Below, in pieces: positions 4,363 to 35,664 of a stretch of 64,000 nt of DNA (positions within the stretch are counted from its first letter, which is position 1; each line of letters opens with the position of its first letter). Below the pieces are notes generated by a model, which did not search any database, had not been told where the DNA came from, and saw only the letters and a list, made by a program, of their open reading frames with translations. Position numbers and translations under genes: made by a program. The DNA comes from Natronohydrobacter sp. (GTDB taxonomy: Bacteria; Pseudomonadota; Alphaproteobacteria; Rhodobacterales; Rhodobacteraceae): assembly GCA_030603695.1 (NCBI GenBank), contig JAUVXF010000003.1, positions 124,001 to 188,000 of the forward strand. The letters are read 5' to 3'.

Positions 4363-4398
4363 AAAAAAACGCCGCACATGCGGGCGGGCATGGCGGCG
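4363..4398 (-). terminator. Rho-independent terminator of the 32-residue SOS-type gene
   Basis: On the minus strand CGCCGC-CATGC forms a nested stem with GCATG-T-GCGGCG, followed by seven T. The stem is 11 base pairs with one bulge. It lies 50 bases after the stop of the small gene at 4448-4546 and before trmFO, which makes that small gene a separate short transcription unit. Confidence 0.85.
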
Positions 4399-4447
4399 AA
4401 AGTCAGGCAGGGCAGATGGTAAAAGCCGCAAACTGCGGCCCGCAGGT

Positions 4448-4546
4448 TCAGGCAAAAAGTGGCAAATGCAGTGTGGCAACCACCAGAACAGCCAAAGCGG
4501 CAGCGCCGGCAAGATCTTTCCAGAACAAAGCTTTTTCGGGGGTCAT
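4448..4546 (-). CDS. 32-residue single-pass membrane peptide behind a LexA-type box
   Basis: A short gene that falls below usual length cut-offs. It starts ATG at 4546 with a textbook GGAGG five bases upstream and encodes [16 protein letters not shown] followed by [15 protein letters not shown]. That gives a short charged N-terminus and one hydrophobic span of about 20 residues reaching the C-terminus. It has its own terminator and, 60 bases upstream, a GTTC-N7-GTTC direct repeat abutting a TTGACT -35 element. Established knowledge: Caulobacter SidA is a 29-residue inner-membrane SOS protein that blocks division. I infer an analogous role from size, topology and regulation, not from sequence similarity. 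An alternative is a conserved membrane peptide of unrelated function. The coding call is supported by the ribosome site and terminator. Confidence 0.7.
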
Positions 4547-4599
4547 GGCATCCTCCATTGCGTATGTTGCCATAATGTTCTCGCACACTGAGCGGGTTC

Positions 4600-4620
4600 A
4601 GTCAAGAACATAAACAGAAC
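4600..4620 (-). promoter_or_regulatory. LexA-type SOS box with adjoining -35 element
   Basis: On the minus strand GTTC TGTTTAT GTTC is an exact match to the GTTC-N7-GTTC direct repeat bound by LexA in Rhodobacter and other alphaproteobacteria. TTGACT follows directly at 4605-4600 as a candidate -35. No good -10 appears at 17 bases (GAGAAC), so the promoter core is weaker than the operator. It begins one base after the recG stop codon and faces the 32-residue gene. Confidence 0.65.
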
Positions 4621-4621
4621 A

Positions 4622-6712
4622 TTAACCGACAGAGAGGTATCGGATCGCCTTGTCCTGTTCCATAAGCCATAGCAACACCCGCGCCGCCTGCCCACGCGGG
4701 CTGGCAAGTTCGGGGTCATCTTGCAGCAGCTTGCGCGCATCGCGCTGCGCAATGGCCATAAGGGCGCCTTGGCGTTCCAGATCGGCCACGCGAAAACGTG
4801 GCAGGCCCGATTGCGCAGTGCCAATCAGATCCCCCGCGCCGCGAATGGCCATATCTTCTTCGGCAATGCGAAACCCGTCTTCAGTATCGCGCAAGAGTTT
4901 CAGACGGCGCGCGGCGGTTTCGCCCAAGGGGGCTTCATACATCAACAGGCAGGTAGAGGCCGCGGCCCCGCGCCCCACACGCCCGCGCAGCTGGTGTAAT
5001 TGCGCCAGCCCGAAACTCTCTGCGCGCTCTATCACCATGATAGAGGCATTGGGCACATTCACCCCCACCTCAATCACCGTCGTGGCAACCAGAAGGCTAG
5101 TTTGCCCTGCCACAAACCGGGCCATGGCGGCGTCTTTCCCTGCCGGGGGCAATTGCCCGTGCACCAGCCCCACCGCCCCTTCGCCCAAAGCAGCGCGCAG
5201 ATGGGCAAAGCGGGCCTCTGCGGCTGTCAGATCGCTTAGCTCTGATTCCTCTACCAAGGGGCAAACCCAATAGGCTTGCCGCCCGTCAGCGATTGCGCGG
5301 CGCAGATGCTCGATCACCTCGTCCATGCGCCCGGTCGAGATGAGGGCCGTTTGCACTGGCTGCCGCCCCGGTGGCTTCTCATCCAGAACCGAGACATCCA
5401 TATCCCCATATTGCGCCAGCGCCAGAGAGCGCGGAATGGGTGTGGCCGTCATCACCAGCACATCCACCCCCAAGCCCTTTTCCGACAGCGCCGCCCGCTG
5501 CGCCACGCCAAAGCGGTGTTGCTCATCCACCACGGCAAGGCGCAGATCGCCAAATTCCACCGATTTCTGGAATACGGCATGCGTGCCCACAATGATCTGG
5601 CTGTGGCCCTGCGCCAGATCGGCCAGTTTGCGCGCGCGCTCTGCCCCTTTGTCTCGCCCTGTCAGAAGCACCAGTTCCACCCCTGCCGCTTGGGCCAAGG
5701 GCGCAAGGCTTTCATAATGCTGGCGGGCCAATATTTCGGTGGGGGCCATCATCACCCCTTGCCCGCCGGCTTCGACCGCGATTAGCAAGGCCATCAGCGC
5801 CACAAGTGTTTTTCCCGCGCCGACATCGCCCTGCAAGAGGCGGTTCATGCGGGTTGGCGCGGCCATATCTGCCGCAATTTCGGCGATGGCGCGATCCTGC
5901 GCCCCGGTTGGCGAATAGTCCAACGCTGCCAATACCTTTGCGCGCAAATGCCCATCACCCCGGCTTTCTCTGCCCGGCTTGCGCCGCGCCCGCGCGCGCG
6001 CCAGCGCAAGGGTAAGTTGATGGGCCAGCAATTCATCATAGGCCAGCCGCGCCCGTGCCGGGCTGTCTGCGCCCAAATCCGAAACTGTGGCAGGGTTATG
6101 CACGGCCAATATCGCTGTTTGCCAATCTGGCCAGCCCATCTGCGCTTTCAACGGCCCATCAATCCATTCTGCCAGCACGGGCGCGCGGCCTAGCGCTGCG
6201 GTTACGGCCTTTACCACCTGCTTGGCATTTATCCCCGCACATAGCGCATAGACAGGCTCTGTCTGCGGTAACTCCTGCGCGTCCTCTAGTCGCAAAATGT
6301 GATCAGGGTGCACCATTTGCGCGATGCCATCAAACAGTTCTACCTTGCCGGAAACAAGGCGCTTTTGCCCTGTGGGCAGCAGCTTTTGCAGGTAGTCCCC
6401 GCGGGCATGGAAAAACACCAACTGCCATTCTTGCAGCATGTCTCGGACATGAACGCGGTATGGCTTGCCCCGGCTGCGCGGGGGCGCATGTGCACCGATC
6501 ACCACCTCCACCGTGGCGATGGCGGGAAATTCCAGCCCGCGCAGGCTGTCACGGCGCGTGCGGTCTATCAGATTATGGGGCAGATGAAAAATCAGGTCGC
6601 GCGGGGTTTGCACATGCAAAGCGCCAAGGTTTTTGGCCGCTTTGGGGCCAACCCCGTCCAGCGTTTCAAGACCGGCAAACAGCGGAAACAGAATTTCTGG
6701 CCGCGCGGCCAT
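4622..6712 (-). CDS. recG: ATP-dependent DNA helicase RecG
   Basis: Branched-DNA helicase that remodels stalled forks and Holliday junctions. The 696-residue protein has an N-terminal wedge/OB region with the HhH-like ETLDGVGPKAAKNL near the start. Then come the superfamily 2 motor motifs GDVGAGKT (Walker A), VVDEQHRFG (DEQH box), MTATPIPRSL, and the C-terminal QLRGRVGRG. Length is normal. It starts one base after the ligA stop (TAA-T-ATG), so ligA and recG form a repair operon. The LexA-type box directly behind its stop belongs to the next gene and not to recG. Confidence 0.97.
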   Translation of the reverse strand: MAARPEILFPLFAGLETLDGVGPKAAKNLGALHVQTPRDLIFHLPHNLIDRTRRDSLRGLEFPAIATVEVVIGAHAPPRSRGKPYRVHVRDMLQEWQLVFFHARGDYLQKLLPTGQKRLVSGKVELFDGIAQMVHPDHILRLEDAQELPQTEPVYALCAGINAKQVVKAVTAALGRAPVLAEWIDGPLKAQMGWPDWQTAILAVHNPATVSDLGADSPARARLAYDELLAHQLTLALARARARRKPGRESRGDGHLRAKVLAALDYSPTGAQDRAIAEIAADMAAPTRMNRLLQGDVGAGKTLVALMALLIAVEAGGQGVMMAPTEILARQHYESLAPLAQAAGVELVLLTGRDKGAERARKLADLAQGHSQIIVGTHAVFQKSVEFGDLRLAVVDEQHRFGVAQRAALSEKGLGVDVLVMTATPIPRSLALAQYGDMDVSVLDEKPPGRQPVQTALISTGRMDEVIEHLRRAIADGRQAYWVCPLVEESELSDLTAAEARFAHLRAALGEGAVGLVHGQLPPAGKDAAMARFVAGQTSLLVATTVIEVGVNVPNASIMVIERAESFGLAQLHQLRGRVGRGAAASTCLLMYEAPLGETAARRLKLLRDTEDGFRIAEEDMAIRGAGDLIGTAQSGLPRFRVADLERQGALMAIAQRDARKLLQDDPELASPRGQAARVLLWLMEQDKAIRYLSVG

Positions 6713-6713
6713 A

Positions 6714-8912
<2,199 letters not shown>

Positions 8913-8943: not shown

Positions 8944-9660
8944 TTAGGCCGAAATGGCATCACGCACCAGCTTTCCCGATTCAATGACAGGATCGCGCAA
9001 GACATAGCCCCGCCCCCATACAGTATCTATATAGCTGTCACCACCAGTTGCCTCTGCCAATTTCTTGCGTAGCTTGCAAATAAAGACGTCGATGATCTTC
9101 AATTCTGGCTCGTCCATCCCGCCATATAGATGGTTAAGGAACATTTCCTTTGTCAGTGTGGTGCCCTTGCGCAAGCTTAGAAGTTCCAGCATCTGATACT
9201 CTTTGCCAGTCAGATGCACCGTGTTGCCCTCAACCTCTACGGTTTTTGCATCCAGATTGACGGCAATCTTGCCCGTGCGGATTACCGATTGCGCATGGCC
9301 TTTGCTGCGCCGGATGATCGCATGAATGCGCGCGACAAGTTCTTCACGATGAAATGGTTTTGTCAGGTAATCATCCGCGCCACCGCCAAAGCCGCGCAGC
9401 TTGGTATCCGTATCCGAATCACCTGTCAGAATGAGAATGGGGGTATCCACCCGCGCCAGCCTGACCTGTCGCAACACTTCCAACCCCGCCATGTCCGGCA
9501 AGTTCAAATCCAGAAGGATAAGATCGTAATCATAGAGTTTGCTCAATTCGATCGCGTCTTCACCGAGATCGGTGCAATAAACATTGAAATTCGAATGCGT
9601 GAGCATCAGTTCGATGCTGCGCGAAGTCGTCGGATCATCTTCAACAAGCAAAACCCGCAT
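8944..9660 (-). CDS. ctrA: Cell-cycle response regulator CtrA
   Basis: OmpR-type response regulator that in alphaproteobacteria controls cell cycle, motility and, in Rhodobacteraceae, gene transfer agent genes. The 238-residue protein has a receiver domain with phospho-acceptor D51 in [10 protein letters not shown], the conserved lysine in LTKPFHREE, and a winged-helix domain with [11 protein letters not shown] and [15 protein letters not shown]. That stretch is nearly diagnostic for CtrA. Start is ATG 9660 behind GAGGAGAA; a TTG one codon upstream is less likely. It follows sciP on the same strand. A TTAA-N7-TTAC element lies 46 bases upstream of the start, which suggests autoregulation. Confidence 0.97.
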
Positions 9661-9705
9661 CAATCTTCTCCTCTATCTCGGTTAACCCATGATTTCGCAA
9701 AAAAG

Positions 9706-31695: not shown

Positions 31696-33240
31696 CTATA
31701 AATCCAGCTTCAGCTGATCGGGATGGGCCTGCTTGCGCTTTGCCACACGCATAGCCCCGGCAGAGGCGCGATCTGTGTTTGATGCGCGTGACCCATGCTT
31801 GAACGCCACCGCCCGCGCCACATCCCGAAACCCTGAAGATTTGCGCAAACCCCAGATGGCATCGCGCGCCGCCGCCCCGGCTTGGGCCAGATCAACAATC
31901 GGGGCGGGATAGCGGGCTTGCAACGCCTTCGCCCCCGCGCCCCATGCCCAAGGCGTGTGCAGATAAGGGCCGGGCACATGCGCCAATTCCGGCAGCCATT
32001 TGCGGATAAACTGGCCATCCGGGTCTTGGTCATATCCCTGTTTTACCGGGTTATACATGCGGATCGTGTTGATCCCAGTTGTGCCCGATTGCATTTGCAC
32101 CTGTGACCAGTGAATTCCCGGCTCGTAATCCGTGAGCAGCCGCGCAAGGATTGGGCCAGTGGCGCGCCAATCCAGCCACAGGTGATAGCTTGCAAAAGAC
32201 ATCAGCATTGCGCGCATGCGGAAATTCAGCCAGCCAGTCGCGCGCAGATAGCGCATGCAGGCATCGACAAAGGGCACCCCTGTTTCCCCCATTTCCCAAG
32301 CGCGCAAACGGGCGCTGTCACTTTCGCGCGGGCGCAGGGTTTCATGGGCAGGGTGCAGGCAGCGCCATTCCAGCGCGGGTTCATCTTCCAGCTTTTGGAT
32401 GAAATGATCGCGCCATGCCAGACGCTTGGCGAAACTGTTCAGCGCGGCCCCCCATTCTGGCGCGCCGGGATGGGCGGCGCGTGCGGCCGCGCGGGCCTGT
32501 TCCACTTGCCGAACAGATACAACCCCAAGCGCCAGATATGGAGAGAGGCGCGAGCAGGCCCGTTCTGCCGTAAGTGGCGAAGACATGGCAACACGGTAGC
32601 GCGCGCCCCGCGTTGCTAGAAAACTGTCCAACGCATGAAGGGCCGCGCGCCTATGCCCTGTCTGGCGATGCGGGCAAGGATCAAGGGCCATGCGAAAGGC
32701 GCGGGCATCGGGCAGATGTTCCAGCCCGGAAATTTCGCTTGCGAGTGGCGCAAGCACCTCTGGCGCAGGGACAAGGGGCTGGCGCATGAAGCGGTTGCGC
32801 TGGCCCTGCCAGCCGTCACGGCTTTCCAGCCGCCGCACCACCCCCGATTGCGGCAGTTCCTGCCAGTCAATCCCATTTGCCCGCGCCCAAGCGCCCACGC
32901 GTTTATCGCGCGCATATGTCCAGGCATTGCCTGTTTCTTCATGGCTGATCATGCGGGTGATGTGATGCGCCTTGCACAGGCGCGCAAGCTCCTCCACAGC
33001 CTCGCCCTTGCGCAGGATAAGCGGCTGGCCAAGGGCCGCCAGATCGGCGCGCAGGCTGTCCAACGCCTCTGCCGTAAAGGCCCATTGGCGCGCGGATGTA
33101 TCTGGAAGCGCCCAGTAATCGGGTTCGATGATATATAGCGGCAGAATATGAGGCCCCGCCAAGGCCAAGGCCGGATGATCCGTAATCCGCAGATCACGCT
33201 TGAACCAGACAAGAACAGGGGGCGTTGTATGGGCTGTCAT
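31696..33240 (-). CDS. DNA photolyase / cryptochrome family protein
   Basis: A 514-residue flavoprotein with an N-terminal photolyase domain (LVWFKRDLRITDHPALALA) and a C-terminal FAD-binding domain (SRLSPYLALGVVSVRQV, LNFRMRAMLMSF, MYNPVKQGYDQDPDGQFIRKW). Expected to repair UV-induced pyrimidine dimers with blue light, or to act as a photoreceptor. The region WSQVQMQSGTTGINTIR replaces the usual WQWxAG...QPYFRI of class I CPD enzymes, so this is a divergent subclass. It lacks the four-cysteine cluster of the FeS type. ATG 33240 is used; ATG 33252 is possible. A LexA-type box lies 43 bases upstream. Confidence 0.85.
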   Translation of the reverse strand: MTAHTTPPVLVWFKRDLRITDHPALALAGPHILPLYIIEPDYWALPDTSARQWAFTAEALDSLRADLAALGQPLILRKGEAVEELARLCKAHHITRMISHEETGNAWTYARDKRVGAWARANGIDWQELPQSGVVRRLESRDGWQGQRNRFMRQPLVPAPEVLAPLASEISGLEHLPDARAFRMALDPCPHRQTGHRRAALHALDSFLATRGARYRVAMSSPLTAERACSRLSPYLALGVVSVRQVEQARAAARAAHPGAPEWGAALNSFAKRLAWRDHFIQKLEDEPALEWRCLHPAHETLRPRESDSARLRAWEMGETGVPFVDACMRYLRATGWLNFRMRAMLMSFASYHLWLDWRATGPILARLLTDYEPGIHWSQVQMQSGTTGINTIRMYNPVKQGYDQDPDGQFIRKWLPELAHVPGPYLHTPWAWGAGAKALQARYPAPIVDLAQAGAAARDAIWGLRKSSGFRDVARAVAFKHGSRASNTDRASAGAMRVAKRKQAHPDQLKLDL

Positions 33241-33282
33241 GGCGCAAGACATATCGTCTCGCACGCAGGCGTCAAGCCAAAT

Positions 33283-33297
33283 GTTCCCCTCTTGTTC
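33283..33297. promoter_or_regulatory. LexA-type SOS box upstream of the photolyase gene
   Basis: GTTC-CCCTCTT-GTTC is an exact GTTC-N7-GTTC repeat in the 72-base gap between RNase R and the photolyase gene. On the minus strand TTGACG follows eight bases later. No RpoE-type TGATC element is present, unlike what is described for R. sphaeroides photolyase. Confidence 0.5.
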
Positions 33298-33312: not shown

Positions 33313-35553
33313 TTAGCCCCGCTGGCGCTTCAGCTTTTTCTTGGCCTTCGCCACACCTGCCCGTGCCTTGCCTGCGGCACGCCCACGCGGCCCGCCGCGC
33401 CCGCGCCGCCCAGAACTGCGCGTGGGGGCTTCGCCTTCCACCTCCAGCAATTCCAGCGCAATACCACCTGTTACAGGTTCTGCCTCTGCCAGTTTCACCT
33501 TCACGCGCTGGCCAAGCACTATGCGAAAGCCTGTGCGCTCTCCCTCCAGCATTTGCGCCTCTGGGTCATGGCGGAAATATTCATCCCCGATGGCCCGGAT
33601 CGGAACCAACCCATCCGCGCCGGTTTCATCCAGCTTCACAAACACCCCAAACCGGGCCACTCCAGAAACGCGGCCAGTAAATTCCGCACCCACCCTGTCG
33701 GCCAGATAGGCGGCAAGATAGCGATCTGCTGTATCACGTTCAGCGGCCATGGAACGGCGTTCCGCCTCGGATATCGCTTTGGCAGTTTCGTCCAGATGTT
33801 CGATATCCCAAGGGCTAAGCCCATCTGCGCCCCAGCCATGCGCCGAAATTAGGCCGCGATGCACAATCAGATCGGCATAGCGCCGGATGGGAGAGGTGAA
33901 ATGCGCATATTCGCGCAAGGCCAACCCAAAATGCCCAAAATTCTGCGGTGCATAATACGCCTGCGTCATGGAACGCAACGTGGCCATATTGATCAATTCA
34001 TCAAATTCCGTGCCTTCGGCCTGCTTGAGAAGCTGGTTGAAATGGCGCGTCATCAATACTTGGCCCTTGGCCAGCGCAAAGCCCGATTCCCGCGCCAATT
34101 CGCGCAAGGAGTCCATCTTTTCTACGCTGGGTTCTTCATGCACGCGGTATAGAAGCGCACTGCCCTTTTCGCGCAATGTTTCGGCTGCGGCCACATTGGC
34201 CAGCACCATGAATTCCTCGACCAGCCGATGCGCATCAAACCGCTCTTTGAAGGCAACCGAGGTCACGCGCCCTTCATCCGACAGGATGATCTGACGTTCT
34301 GGCAAATCCAGATCCAGCGGCTGGCGGCGCGTGCGCGCAGTGTGAAGCGCGCGGTAGGCGGCGAAAAGATCGGCCAGGGCCTGTGCAAGCGGGGCCGTGG
34401 CCTCGTCCAGCGTGCCACCATCTGCCGCCTGTGCCTGTTCATAGGTGAGAGAGGCTTTGGAGCACATCATCGCGCGGTGGAATTCATGCGCGCGCTTGTT
34501 GCCAGCGGCATCTATGACCATGCGCAGCGCGATACAGGGGCGATCTACCCCTTCATGCAACGAACACAAATCGCCCGACAGGATATCGGGCAGCATGGGC
34601 ACAACACGATCCGGGAAATAGGTGGAATTGCCGCGCCTGCGCGCTTCTCTGTCCAGTTCGGAATTGGGGCGCACATAGGCCGCCACATCGGCAATCGCCA
34701 CCCAAAGGATAAATCCGCCGGGGTTTTCGGGGTCTGGGTCTGCCTCGGCATAAATTGCATCATCATGGTCGCGGGCATCCCATGGGTCGATCGTCATCAA
34801 AGGAAGCGCGCGCAAGTCGCGCCGCCCCTTGGCAGAGATTGGGCCTGCGCCATCGGCCTCGGCAATCACGGCATCTGGGAACGCATCGCGAATGCCATGC
34901 TGATGGATGGCAATCAAAGACACGGCTTTGGGCGCGGTCGGATCGCCCAGCCGTTCGATGATCTTGGCACGCATGGGGCCAAAGCGGGATTTCCCCGCAG
35001 GTTCGGCATGCACCAATTCGCCATCAATCGCGCCGCCAGTATCGGTCACTGTCCAGAACTTGTCTGCGCCCTTGTCAATCGGCACAATACGCCCGCCTTG
35101 GGTTTCCTTGCGGAAAATACCCAGAATACGGCTGGGATTTGCGCCAATCTTGCGGATCACGCGGGCCTGATAATCATAATCGGGGCCGCGGATTTCAGAT
35201 AGTTTTGCCAGCACCCTGTCGCCCTGCCCCAAAGCCGGATCACCGGGTTGCGTTATCATCAGGATGACAGGGGCCGCACCATCGCCGCGCCATTCGACAG
35301 GGCGCGCGAATAGATCGCCTTCGGCATCCGGGGCTAACACTTCCAGCACTGTGACAGGCGGCAAGCCCCCGCTTGCCCGCGCAGAGCGGCGGGGGGCAAG
35401 GGTGCCGTCTGCTTCCAGATCGCGCAAGAGGGCCTTGAGATCAATCTTGGCACTGCCCTTGACTCCGAAAGCTTTGGCAATGTCGCGCCGGTTTGAACCG
35501 GGGTTTTCCGCCAGCCATTGGCGCAGATCATCCAGCGAGGGAAGCTGTTTCAT
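33313..35553 (-). CDS. rnr: Ribonuclease R
   Basis: Processive 3'-5' exoribonuclease of the RNB family that degrades structured RNA. The 746-residue protein has an N-terminal winged helix (SNRRDIAKAFGVKGSAKIDL), cold-shock domains, and the catalytic RNB domain with DPWDARDHDDAIYAE (metal aspartates). A C-terminal S1 domain (GRVSGVARFGVFVKLDETGADGLVP) and a basic tail rich in GRRGRGGPRGR complete it. The start MKQLPSLDDLRQW at 35553 has GGGGCAGGGC upstream; the open frame before it is not conserved. Confidence 0.95.
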   Translation of the reverse strand: MKQLPSLDDLRQWLAENPGSNRRDIAKAFGVKGSAKIDLKALLRDLEADGTLAPRRSARASGGLPPVTVLEVLAPDAEGDLFARPVEWRGDGAAPVILMITQPGDPALGQGDRVLAKLSEIRGPDYDYQARVIRKIGANPSRILGIFRKETQGGRIVPIDKGADKFWTVTDTGGAIDGELVHAEPAGKSRFGPMRAKIIERLGDPTAPKAVSLIAIHQHGIRDAFPDAVIAEADGAGPISAKGRRDLRALPLMTIDPWDARDHDDAIYAEADPDPENPGGFILWVAIADVAAYVRPNSELDREARRRGNSTYFPDRVVPMLPDILSGDLCSLHEGVDRPCIALRMVIDAAGNKRAHEFHRAMMCSKASLTYEQAQAADGGTLDEATAPLAQALADLFAAYRALHTARTRRQPLDLDLPERQIILSDEGRVTSVAFKERFDAHRLVEEFMVLANVAAAETLREKGSALLYRVHEEPSVEKMDSLRELARESGFALAKGQVLMTRHFNQLLKQAEGTEFDELINMATLRSMTQAYYAPQNFGHFGLALREYAHFTSPIRRYADLIVHRGLISAHGWGADGLSPWDIEHLDETAKAISEAERRSMAAERDTADRYLAAYLADRVGAEFTGRVSGVARFGVFVKLDETGADGLVPIRAIGDEYFRHDPEAQMLEGERTGFRIVLGQRVKVKLAEAEPVTGGIALELLEVEGEAPTRSSGRRGRGGPRGRAAGKARAGVAKAKKKLKRQRG

Positions 35554-35664
35554 GCCCTGCCCCCTAAGGCCAAAGCCGCACAAAGCGCGCATGGGAAGCG
35601 CAAGAAAGCGAGGGAATAAACGGTGCGTGTCATTCCCTGCCCCTAGCATGGGTGGCAGCCAGCG

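Follow-up and report, generated by a model that had tools for sequence, protein, structure and literature searches.

A conserved micropeptide gene beside recG in the Rhodobacteraceae under a predicted LexA-type double operator: a candidate SOS division inhibitor

The minus strand of the analysed stretch of Natronohydrobacter sp. DNA (64,000 nucleotides, here called the window) carries a compact unit immediately behind recG (residing at 4622–6712; NF008164, 1099 bits). The recG stop codon, TAA (4624–4622), is followed by a single T and then by LexA-type box 1, GTTCTGTTTATGTTC (4606–4620), an exact GTTC-N7-GTTC repeat abutted by the −35-like hexamer TTGACT (4600–4605), which is TTTACA in most relatives. 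Further downstream are a GGAGG ribosome-binding site (4552–4556), a 32-codon ORF encoding a single hydrophobic helix (4448–4546 with its stop; start ATG 4546–4544, stop TGA 4450–4448) and an intrinsic terminator, CGCCGCCATGC..GCATGTGCGGCG with a T-run (4363–4398). All of these elements lie where a preceding sequence-only reading had located them, except that the terminator falls outside the interval 4448–4620 that it had assigned to the unit. That reading overlooked two components: a degenerate LexA-type box 2, GAACATTATGGCAAC (GAAC-N7-CAAC; 4566–4580), whose first half coincides in part with the probable −10 region GAGAACA, and the structured RNA at the 3′ end. The latter occupies the 3′ untranslated region (4363–4447), which in the window consists of a short hairpin, the C-rich motif TGCCCTGCCTGAC and the terminator, and is reduced relative to the longer structured RNA of most relatives.

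The unit had been described as occupying the gap between recG and trmFO, and only the recG half of this setting holds beyond the genus. recG is a conserved upstream neighbour, lying directly upstream on the same strand in 29 of 30 fetched peptide loci; at L002, near a contig start, it was not found in the locus, and the best recG match of that genome is on another contig. trmFO was rejected as a conserved partner: in loci spanning about 1,500 bases on each side, it is adjacent in only 2 of 30 (L001 and L005), those of the window and of the single other genome of its genus. It is to recG that the unit is tied, rather than to a gap between recG and trmFO. On the far side of recG, an ORF (6714–8885) and, upstream of it, a response regulator gene (8944–9663; PF00072 and PF00486), the product of which resembles CtrA, lie on the same strand.

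The distribution of the peptide gene was followed in the window's own family, taken from named records to be Rhodobacteraceae in the broad sense and represented by 295 genomes, almost one per genus. A homologue search with the 32 residues, as proposed in the sequence-only reading, found relatives in 78 of the 295 (E ≤ 0.1). For sampling independent of the peptide, a search with the RecG C terminus was positive in 286 of the 295 genomes, and 60 recG ends were taken from the best ~150 of the 286 rows, those with a RecG closest to that of the window (twenty of the first 24 rows, omitting G000, G179, G021 and G091, then every second and then every third row). A profile built from the first 30 peptides found a member in 58 of these 60 unselected recG ends, all at E ≤ 1.5e-7, and in 54 of 56 when the four genomes that were also seed donors are excluded. 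A frame broken while its flanks were kept had been named as the outcome that would count against the gene; instead, a related frame of about 40 codons is intact in these 58 ends. One of the two misses, L054 (genome G205), shows the promoter of the unit where the fetched stretch ends, ~540 bases past recG, with the peptide just beyond that stretch, so that the unit survives behind ~540 extra bases. The other, L070 (G175), lacks both box and peptide within its fetched 600 bases, and the genome-wide profile match there has an E value of 7e-9.

A profile of 87 sequences matches 256 of the 295 family genomes at E ≤ 0.001 and leaves 39 without a match; 252 of the matching genomes have one match and 4 have two, a few of the matches being weak (E near 3e-4). 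Among 385 alphaproteobacterial genomes, a peptide profile gives matches in ten, of which five belong to the family and five lie outside it, and none of the non-matching genomes listed is a family member. The five matches outside the family (E 8e-4 to 0.01) all lie within open frames of 234–401 residues and were rejected as chance, leaving no credible relative outside the family in a profile search of ~380 alphaproteobacterial genomes. In a class-wide check, for which recG was sought in 67 genomes and 30 loci were inspected over 400 bases (one over 261), no box follows recG in 28 of 28 ends from other alphaproteobacterial families, whereas both family members have it. In a large protein collection, a 17-member profile retrieves 840 proteins; among the 120 listed, none has a Pfam domain, all readable names are hypothetical or uncharacterized, and the genera include Ruegeria, Phaeobacter, Sulfitobacter and Rhodovulum. 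No Pfam or NCBIfam model was found for the peptide among the 87 members at a threshold of E ≤ 1, at which the best values, 0.0095 for Pfam and 0.066 for NCBIfam, each come from one member of the 87. Because the comparison across unselected recG ends shows both the frame and the box to be conserved, the peptide ORF is, on comparative grounds, a real and conserved gene. The proposal of a self-contained unit, with a LexA-type operator and a single-span membrane peptide ORF, is supported by the conservation of the frame in relatives.

The peptide is usually about 40 residues long (exactly 40 in 66 of 84), and the 32-residue window copy is an unusually short form, the shortest of all. The consensus is MxxxIKxxxxRSxxTLxxDAxGAxALxVxLxxGLHLPxxx, in which Asp11 and Gly14 (window numbering) never vary across the 87 aligned sequences, at least 90% of which also keep Leu18, Leu26 and Pro29. 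All 84 distinct peptides contain a 17-residue stretch with a mean hydropathy of at least 1.9. AlphaFold models show one continuous helix both for the 40-residue relative L075 (residues 2–39, mean pLDDT 84.8) and for the window copy (residues 3–31, mean pLDDT 86.7), and a single passage through the membrane is predicted for the peptide. When 40-codon genes are compared, the nine most similar pairs differ 103, 57 and 147 times at codon positions 1, 2 and 3, and pN is lower than pS in nine of nine (pN/pS 0.48); within the limits of a small sample whose pairs share members, these substitution patterns show a coding signature in the frame.

Box 1 by itself is weak evidence. GTTC-N7-GTTC occurs at 60 sites in the 2.95-Mb genome, fewer than the 147 of a reversed-pattern control, and the motif count was accordingly rejected as evidence. 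The combination with an abutting TTKAC is not chance: allowing at most one mismatch, it has a single genome-wide match, at the recG-side unit, compared with five for the reversed control. The organism very probably uses the GTTC-N7-GTTC box, because its own lexA and recA each carry one exact copy upstream (GAACATTGATAGAAC at lexA and GAACATTTATCGAAC at recA). The same box type sits on the promoter of the unit, and the predicted LexA control of the unit is well supported, at the level of sequence, by the match between its predicted operator and these LexA boxes. Exact repeats occur at two other places in the window, 33202–33216 (minus strand) and 33283–33297 (plus strand), as possible SOS sites or chance sites; a DNA photolyase gene (31696–33264, minus strand; PF03441 and PF00875) has one of them inside its 5′ end and the other just upstream, and a gene for an RNB/S1-domain ribonuclease (33313–35649) is its neighbour.

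Across the family, box 1 is exact in 86 of 88 peptide rows (which include four genomes twice), with variants in the other two, L031 and L057, and an exact repeat lies within 350 bases of the recG stop in 56 of the 60 recG ends unselected by peptide. The promoter consensus of relatives consists of GTTCTYAAAAAGTTC with TTTACA abutting, followed by TGAGAACAAA. GAGAAC stands at a fixed offset after the box in 69 of 86 rows, and the window shows GAGAACAT, shifted two bases downstream, where most relatives have TGAGAACAAA; the GAGAACA region is the probable −10 element. The GAAC within GAGAAC opens a second, oppositely written box, GAAC-N7-NAAC (mostly CAAC), which precedes the start codon at 82 of 84 distinct loci as against ~1.3% of mononucleotide shuffles, and the window's GAACATTATGGCAAC resembles the lexA and recA boxes of the same genome. 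Judged by this conservation, the unit carries a LexA-type double operator.

The promoter was also sought by its own sequence, without the peptide. GTTC-N7-GTTCTTTACA occurs in 40 of 80 family genomes, once in each (reversed control, 1 match); the window's genome, with its TTGACT, is not one of the 40. By eye, 37 of the 40 places adjoin recG or peptide coordinates, and the other three (G028, G056 and G062) had no recG or peptide coordinate to compare; in G056, box and TTTACA are present and a peptide profile match is absent. An exact 45-base promoter pattern, which was designed from Rhodobacter-family loci and therefore says nothing on absence elsewhere, matches at least 118 stretches in public genomes. 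recG lies upstream in 116 of the 118, at a distance of 16–545 nt (median 31), and the peptide is encoded downstream in 116 of the 118; the exceptions are L169, which begins 139 bases before the promoter, L144, which stops 32 bases after it, L188 and L218. Among the 80 titles listed, the names are those of Rhodobacter-group genera or unspecific (Rhodobacterales, Rhodobacteraceae or Alphaproteobacteria bacterium).

The interval from the stop codon to the end of the terminator measures 141–212 nt in 72 of 84 loci and is reduced to 87 nt in the window and 77 nt in its sister genome, both of which keep the peptide. A multi-hairpin RNA with CTGCCTGCG, CCTGTCCC and TGCCTC before the terminator is seen in most of the loci L003–L090 (for example, L075:261–437 and L007:1594–1757), and the CTGCCTGCG and CCTGTCCC blocks are invariant when eight closer 3′ regions are aligned. 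TGCCT and TGTCC recur, with 3.3 copies per 3′ region compared with 0.63 in mononucleotide shuffles. Without the terminator, the folding energy of the 80 regions that are long enough has a mean z of −2.3 relative to dinucleotide shuffles, 61% of them lying below −2 and 94% below 0. A basal stem forms between the sequence that follows the first TGCC and the sequence that precedes the terminator, and its arms prefer their own partners: the native mean is −20.8 kcal/mol, compared with −14.7 for swapped and −13.1 for shuffled arms, and 0 of 2,000 permutations are as good (76 of 84 regions, after dropping L001, L002, L005, L031, L040, L080 and L083 as shorter than 120 nt and L055 as lacking an anchor). 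Per region the signal is moderate, the own partner ranking in the top 5% for 39% and at a median of 7 among 76. Each of stem positions 4–10 shows two to four Watson–Crick types in the 45 regions whose arm begins with GCG, although these pairs derive from the fitted duplex and are biased towards pairing. The TGTCC hairpin passes the same arm-swap test (−12.1 versus −9.5, 0 of 2,000, 70 regions), and folding predicts a largely unpaired state for the C-rich motifs (probability 0.76 versus 0.43 overall; 271 motifs).

RNAalifold on a sequence-only alignment of 72 3′ regions, which are too divergent for this approach, recovered just the terminator and one three-pair hairpin. Rfam 15 gave five matches across 10 loci at E ≤ 1, none of which reaches the curated score or lies in a 3′ region, and no match in the window at the gathering score. 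The idea that the 3′ region closes off the ribosome-binding site of the same transcript found no support, the predicted partner of that site being mainly the ORF (0.55) and to a small extent the 3′ region (0.10; 82 loci). Taken across loci, these comparisons show the 3′ region of most relatives as a covarying, co-evolving RNA structure that is reduced in the window's lineage, and the conservation of this RNA domain is a hint that the unit may do more than encode the peptide.

Several described systems resemble parts of the unit. SidA of Caulobacter is a 29-residue, LexA-controlled inner-membrane peptide that acts on FtsW (as described in PMC4211646). Compared by description rather than by sequence, it shares with the new unit a tiny single-span membrane peptide, a GTTC-N7-GTTC regulon and an alphaproteobacterial host; sequence, hydropathy and the helix model alike present the window copy as a very short single-span peptide under a LexA-type box. 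It differs in that ~97% of Caulobacter SOS promoters are reported as single-box (PMC12700426), whereas the Rhodobacteraceae unit has two boxes, and in that no credible relative of its peptide was found beyond its own family. E. coli DinQ, a 27-residue LexA-controlled single-span peptide, has a promoter overlapped by two LexA operators, and overexpressing it depolarises the membrane (according to PMC3567139). LexA-type control and a single hydrophobic helix, and for DinQ the paired operators, are common to DinQ and TisB, membrane toxins of type I systems, and the new peptide; the new unit differs in being family-conserved beside recG, with conserved polar residues and a structured 3′ domain. 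DidA, YneA, SosA and ChiZ are likewise described (PMC13396833) as small membrane proteins, made upon DNA damage, that block division at a late stage, but YneA and ChiZ both carry a LysM domain (same source) and DidA is induced independently of SOS (PMC4211646). On the RNA side, UdsC and other 3′-UTR sRNAs of Rhodobacter sphaeroides are comparable as RNA elements that a hypothetical-protein mRNA carries in its 3′ region. UdsC, of 67 nt, was rejected as the same element because its promoter is RpoHII-dependent and the words LexA and recG are absent from the main text of both papers (PMC9779115, PMC8625941).

In the open-licence literature, surveyed by titles and the starts of abstracts, nothing was recognised as the recG-side peptide gene, and no identified SOS division inhibitor was found for Rhodobacteraceae. 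recG is absent from the main text of the Dinoroseobacter LexA paper (PMC6473078), the supplement of which, with its predicted LexA sites, may include the gene.

These features suggest how the unit would operate. In the unstressed cell, LexA would occupy the two boxes bracketing the promoter and keep expression tightly off; a double operator is to be expected where leaky expression of the product would harm growth. Upon DNA damage, RecA filaments would trigger LexA self-cleavage and the unit would be transcribed into an RNA of ~210 nt in the window and ~320 nt in relatives (from an assumed start site), ending at the terminator. The peptide would be inserted into the inner membrane, the conserved Asp-x-x-Gly opening the hydrophobic stretch and Leu-His-Leu-Pro closing it, and would likely act on the late divisome (FtsW, FtsI or FtsN), delaying division while DNA is repaired. 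In most relatives, the 3′ untranslated region would form a separate multi-hairpin domain exposing C-rich loops and may be an RNA regulator; because this RNA is reduced in the window's lineage, the peptide is taken as the main product there. LexA binding, damage induction, membrane insertion and division arrest are all inferred steps in this scheme.

By analogy, a SidA-like delay or arrest of division by an SOS membrane peptide is the function we favour, at a probability of about one half. It is favoured because SidA, DidA, YneA and SosA are small damage-induced membrane proteins reported to act on late division, because loss of LexA in Caulobacter leads to filaments through sidA (PMC12700426), and because the invariant polar residues suggest a specific partner. 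The sequence nevertheless fits a divisome inhibitor and other membrane-active SOS peptides such as TisB and DinQ alike. A LexA-controlled toxin of the latter kind would lower the membrane potential and slow metabolism under heavy damage, leaving the divisome unbound, and the peptide's size, its single helix and its tight operator all agree with this; the alternative stays alive because DinQ, too, has a double operator (PMC3567139). It is made unlikely by the invariant Asp and Gly in 87 sequences and the mostly conserved Leu-His-Leu-Pro end, both suggestive of a specific partner, and by the single match in each of 252 of the 256 genomes, which differs from the patchy, multi-copy spread of type I toxins.

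The constant place of the peptide after recG could instead reflect a role in some other membrane-linked damage process, for example recombination, nucleoid compaction, release of gene transfer agents, or modulation of a transporter or sensor kinase. LexA is described as wired into the CtrA and gene-transfer-agent network in the Rhodobacter group (PMC6473078), and DinQ as altering recombination and nucleoid shape (PMC3567139), but the recG adjacency may reflect merely a convenient intergenic site, and we hold such a role to be rather doubtful. That the unit serves mainly as a regulatory RNA, its structured 3′ region and C-rich loops doing the work and the peptide being secondary, is improbable: the arm preference of the basal stem, the Watson–Crick variety at its seven positions, the predicted exposure of the C-rich motifs and the known 3′-UTR-derived sRNAs of Rhodobacter (PMC9779115, PMC8625941) speak for it, whereas the coding signature of the frame and the retention of the peptide beside shortened 3′ regions, in the window and its sister genome, speak against it. 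Four-base half-sites are common, as the 60 matches in the organism's own genome illustrate, but a chance ORF next to a chance box is refuted by the cross-genus conservation of box, promoter spacing, frame and residues, and may be set aside as extremely improbable.

Division delay by the peptide, the preferred reading, could be joined with the RNA in a single family-wide scheme, which we put forward tentatively as a possibility: one LexA-controlled, dual-function transcript whose frame would yield a micropeptide that blocks the divisome and whose 3′ end would supply a C-rich regulatory RNA of several hairpins. The unit is a concrete, widespread and genetically simple candidate for an SOS division inhibitor at a fixed address in Rhodobacteraceae, and it adds, under one conserved promoter, both a family of micropeptides that Pfam and NCBIfam lack and a structured RNA for which Rfam gave no match. 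If the dual-function scheme is true, one gene would let DNA damage both halt division and re-set target mRNAs.
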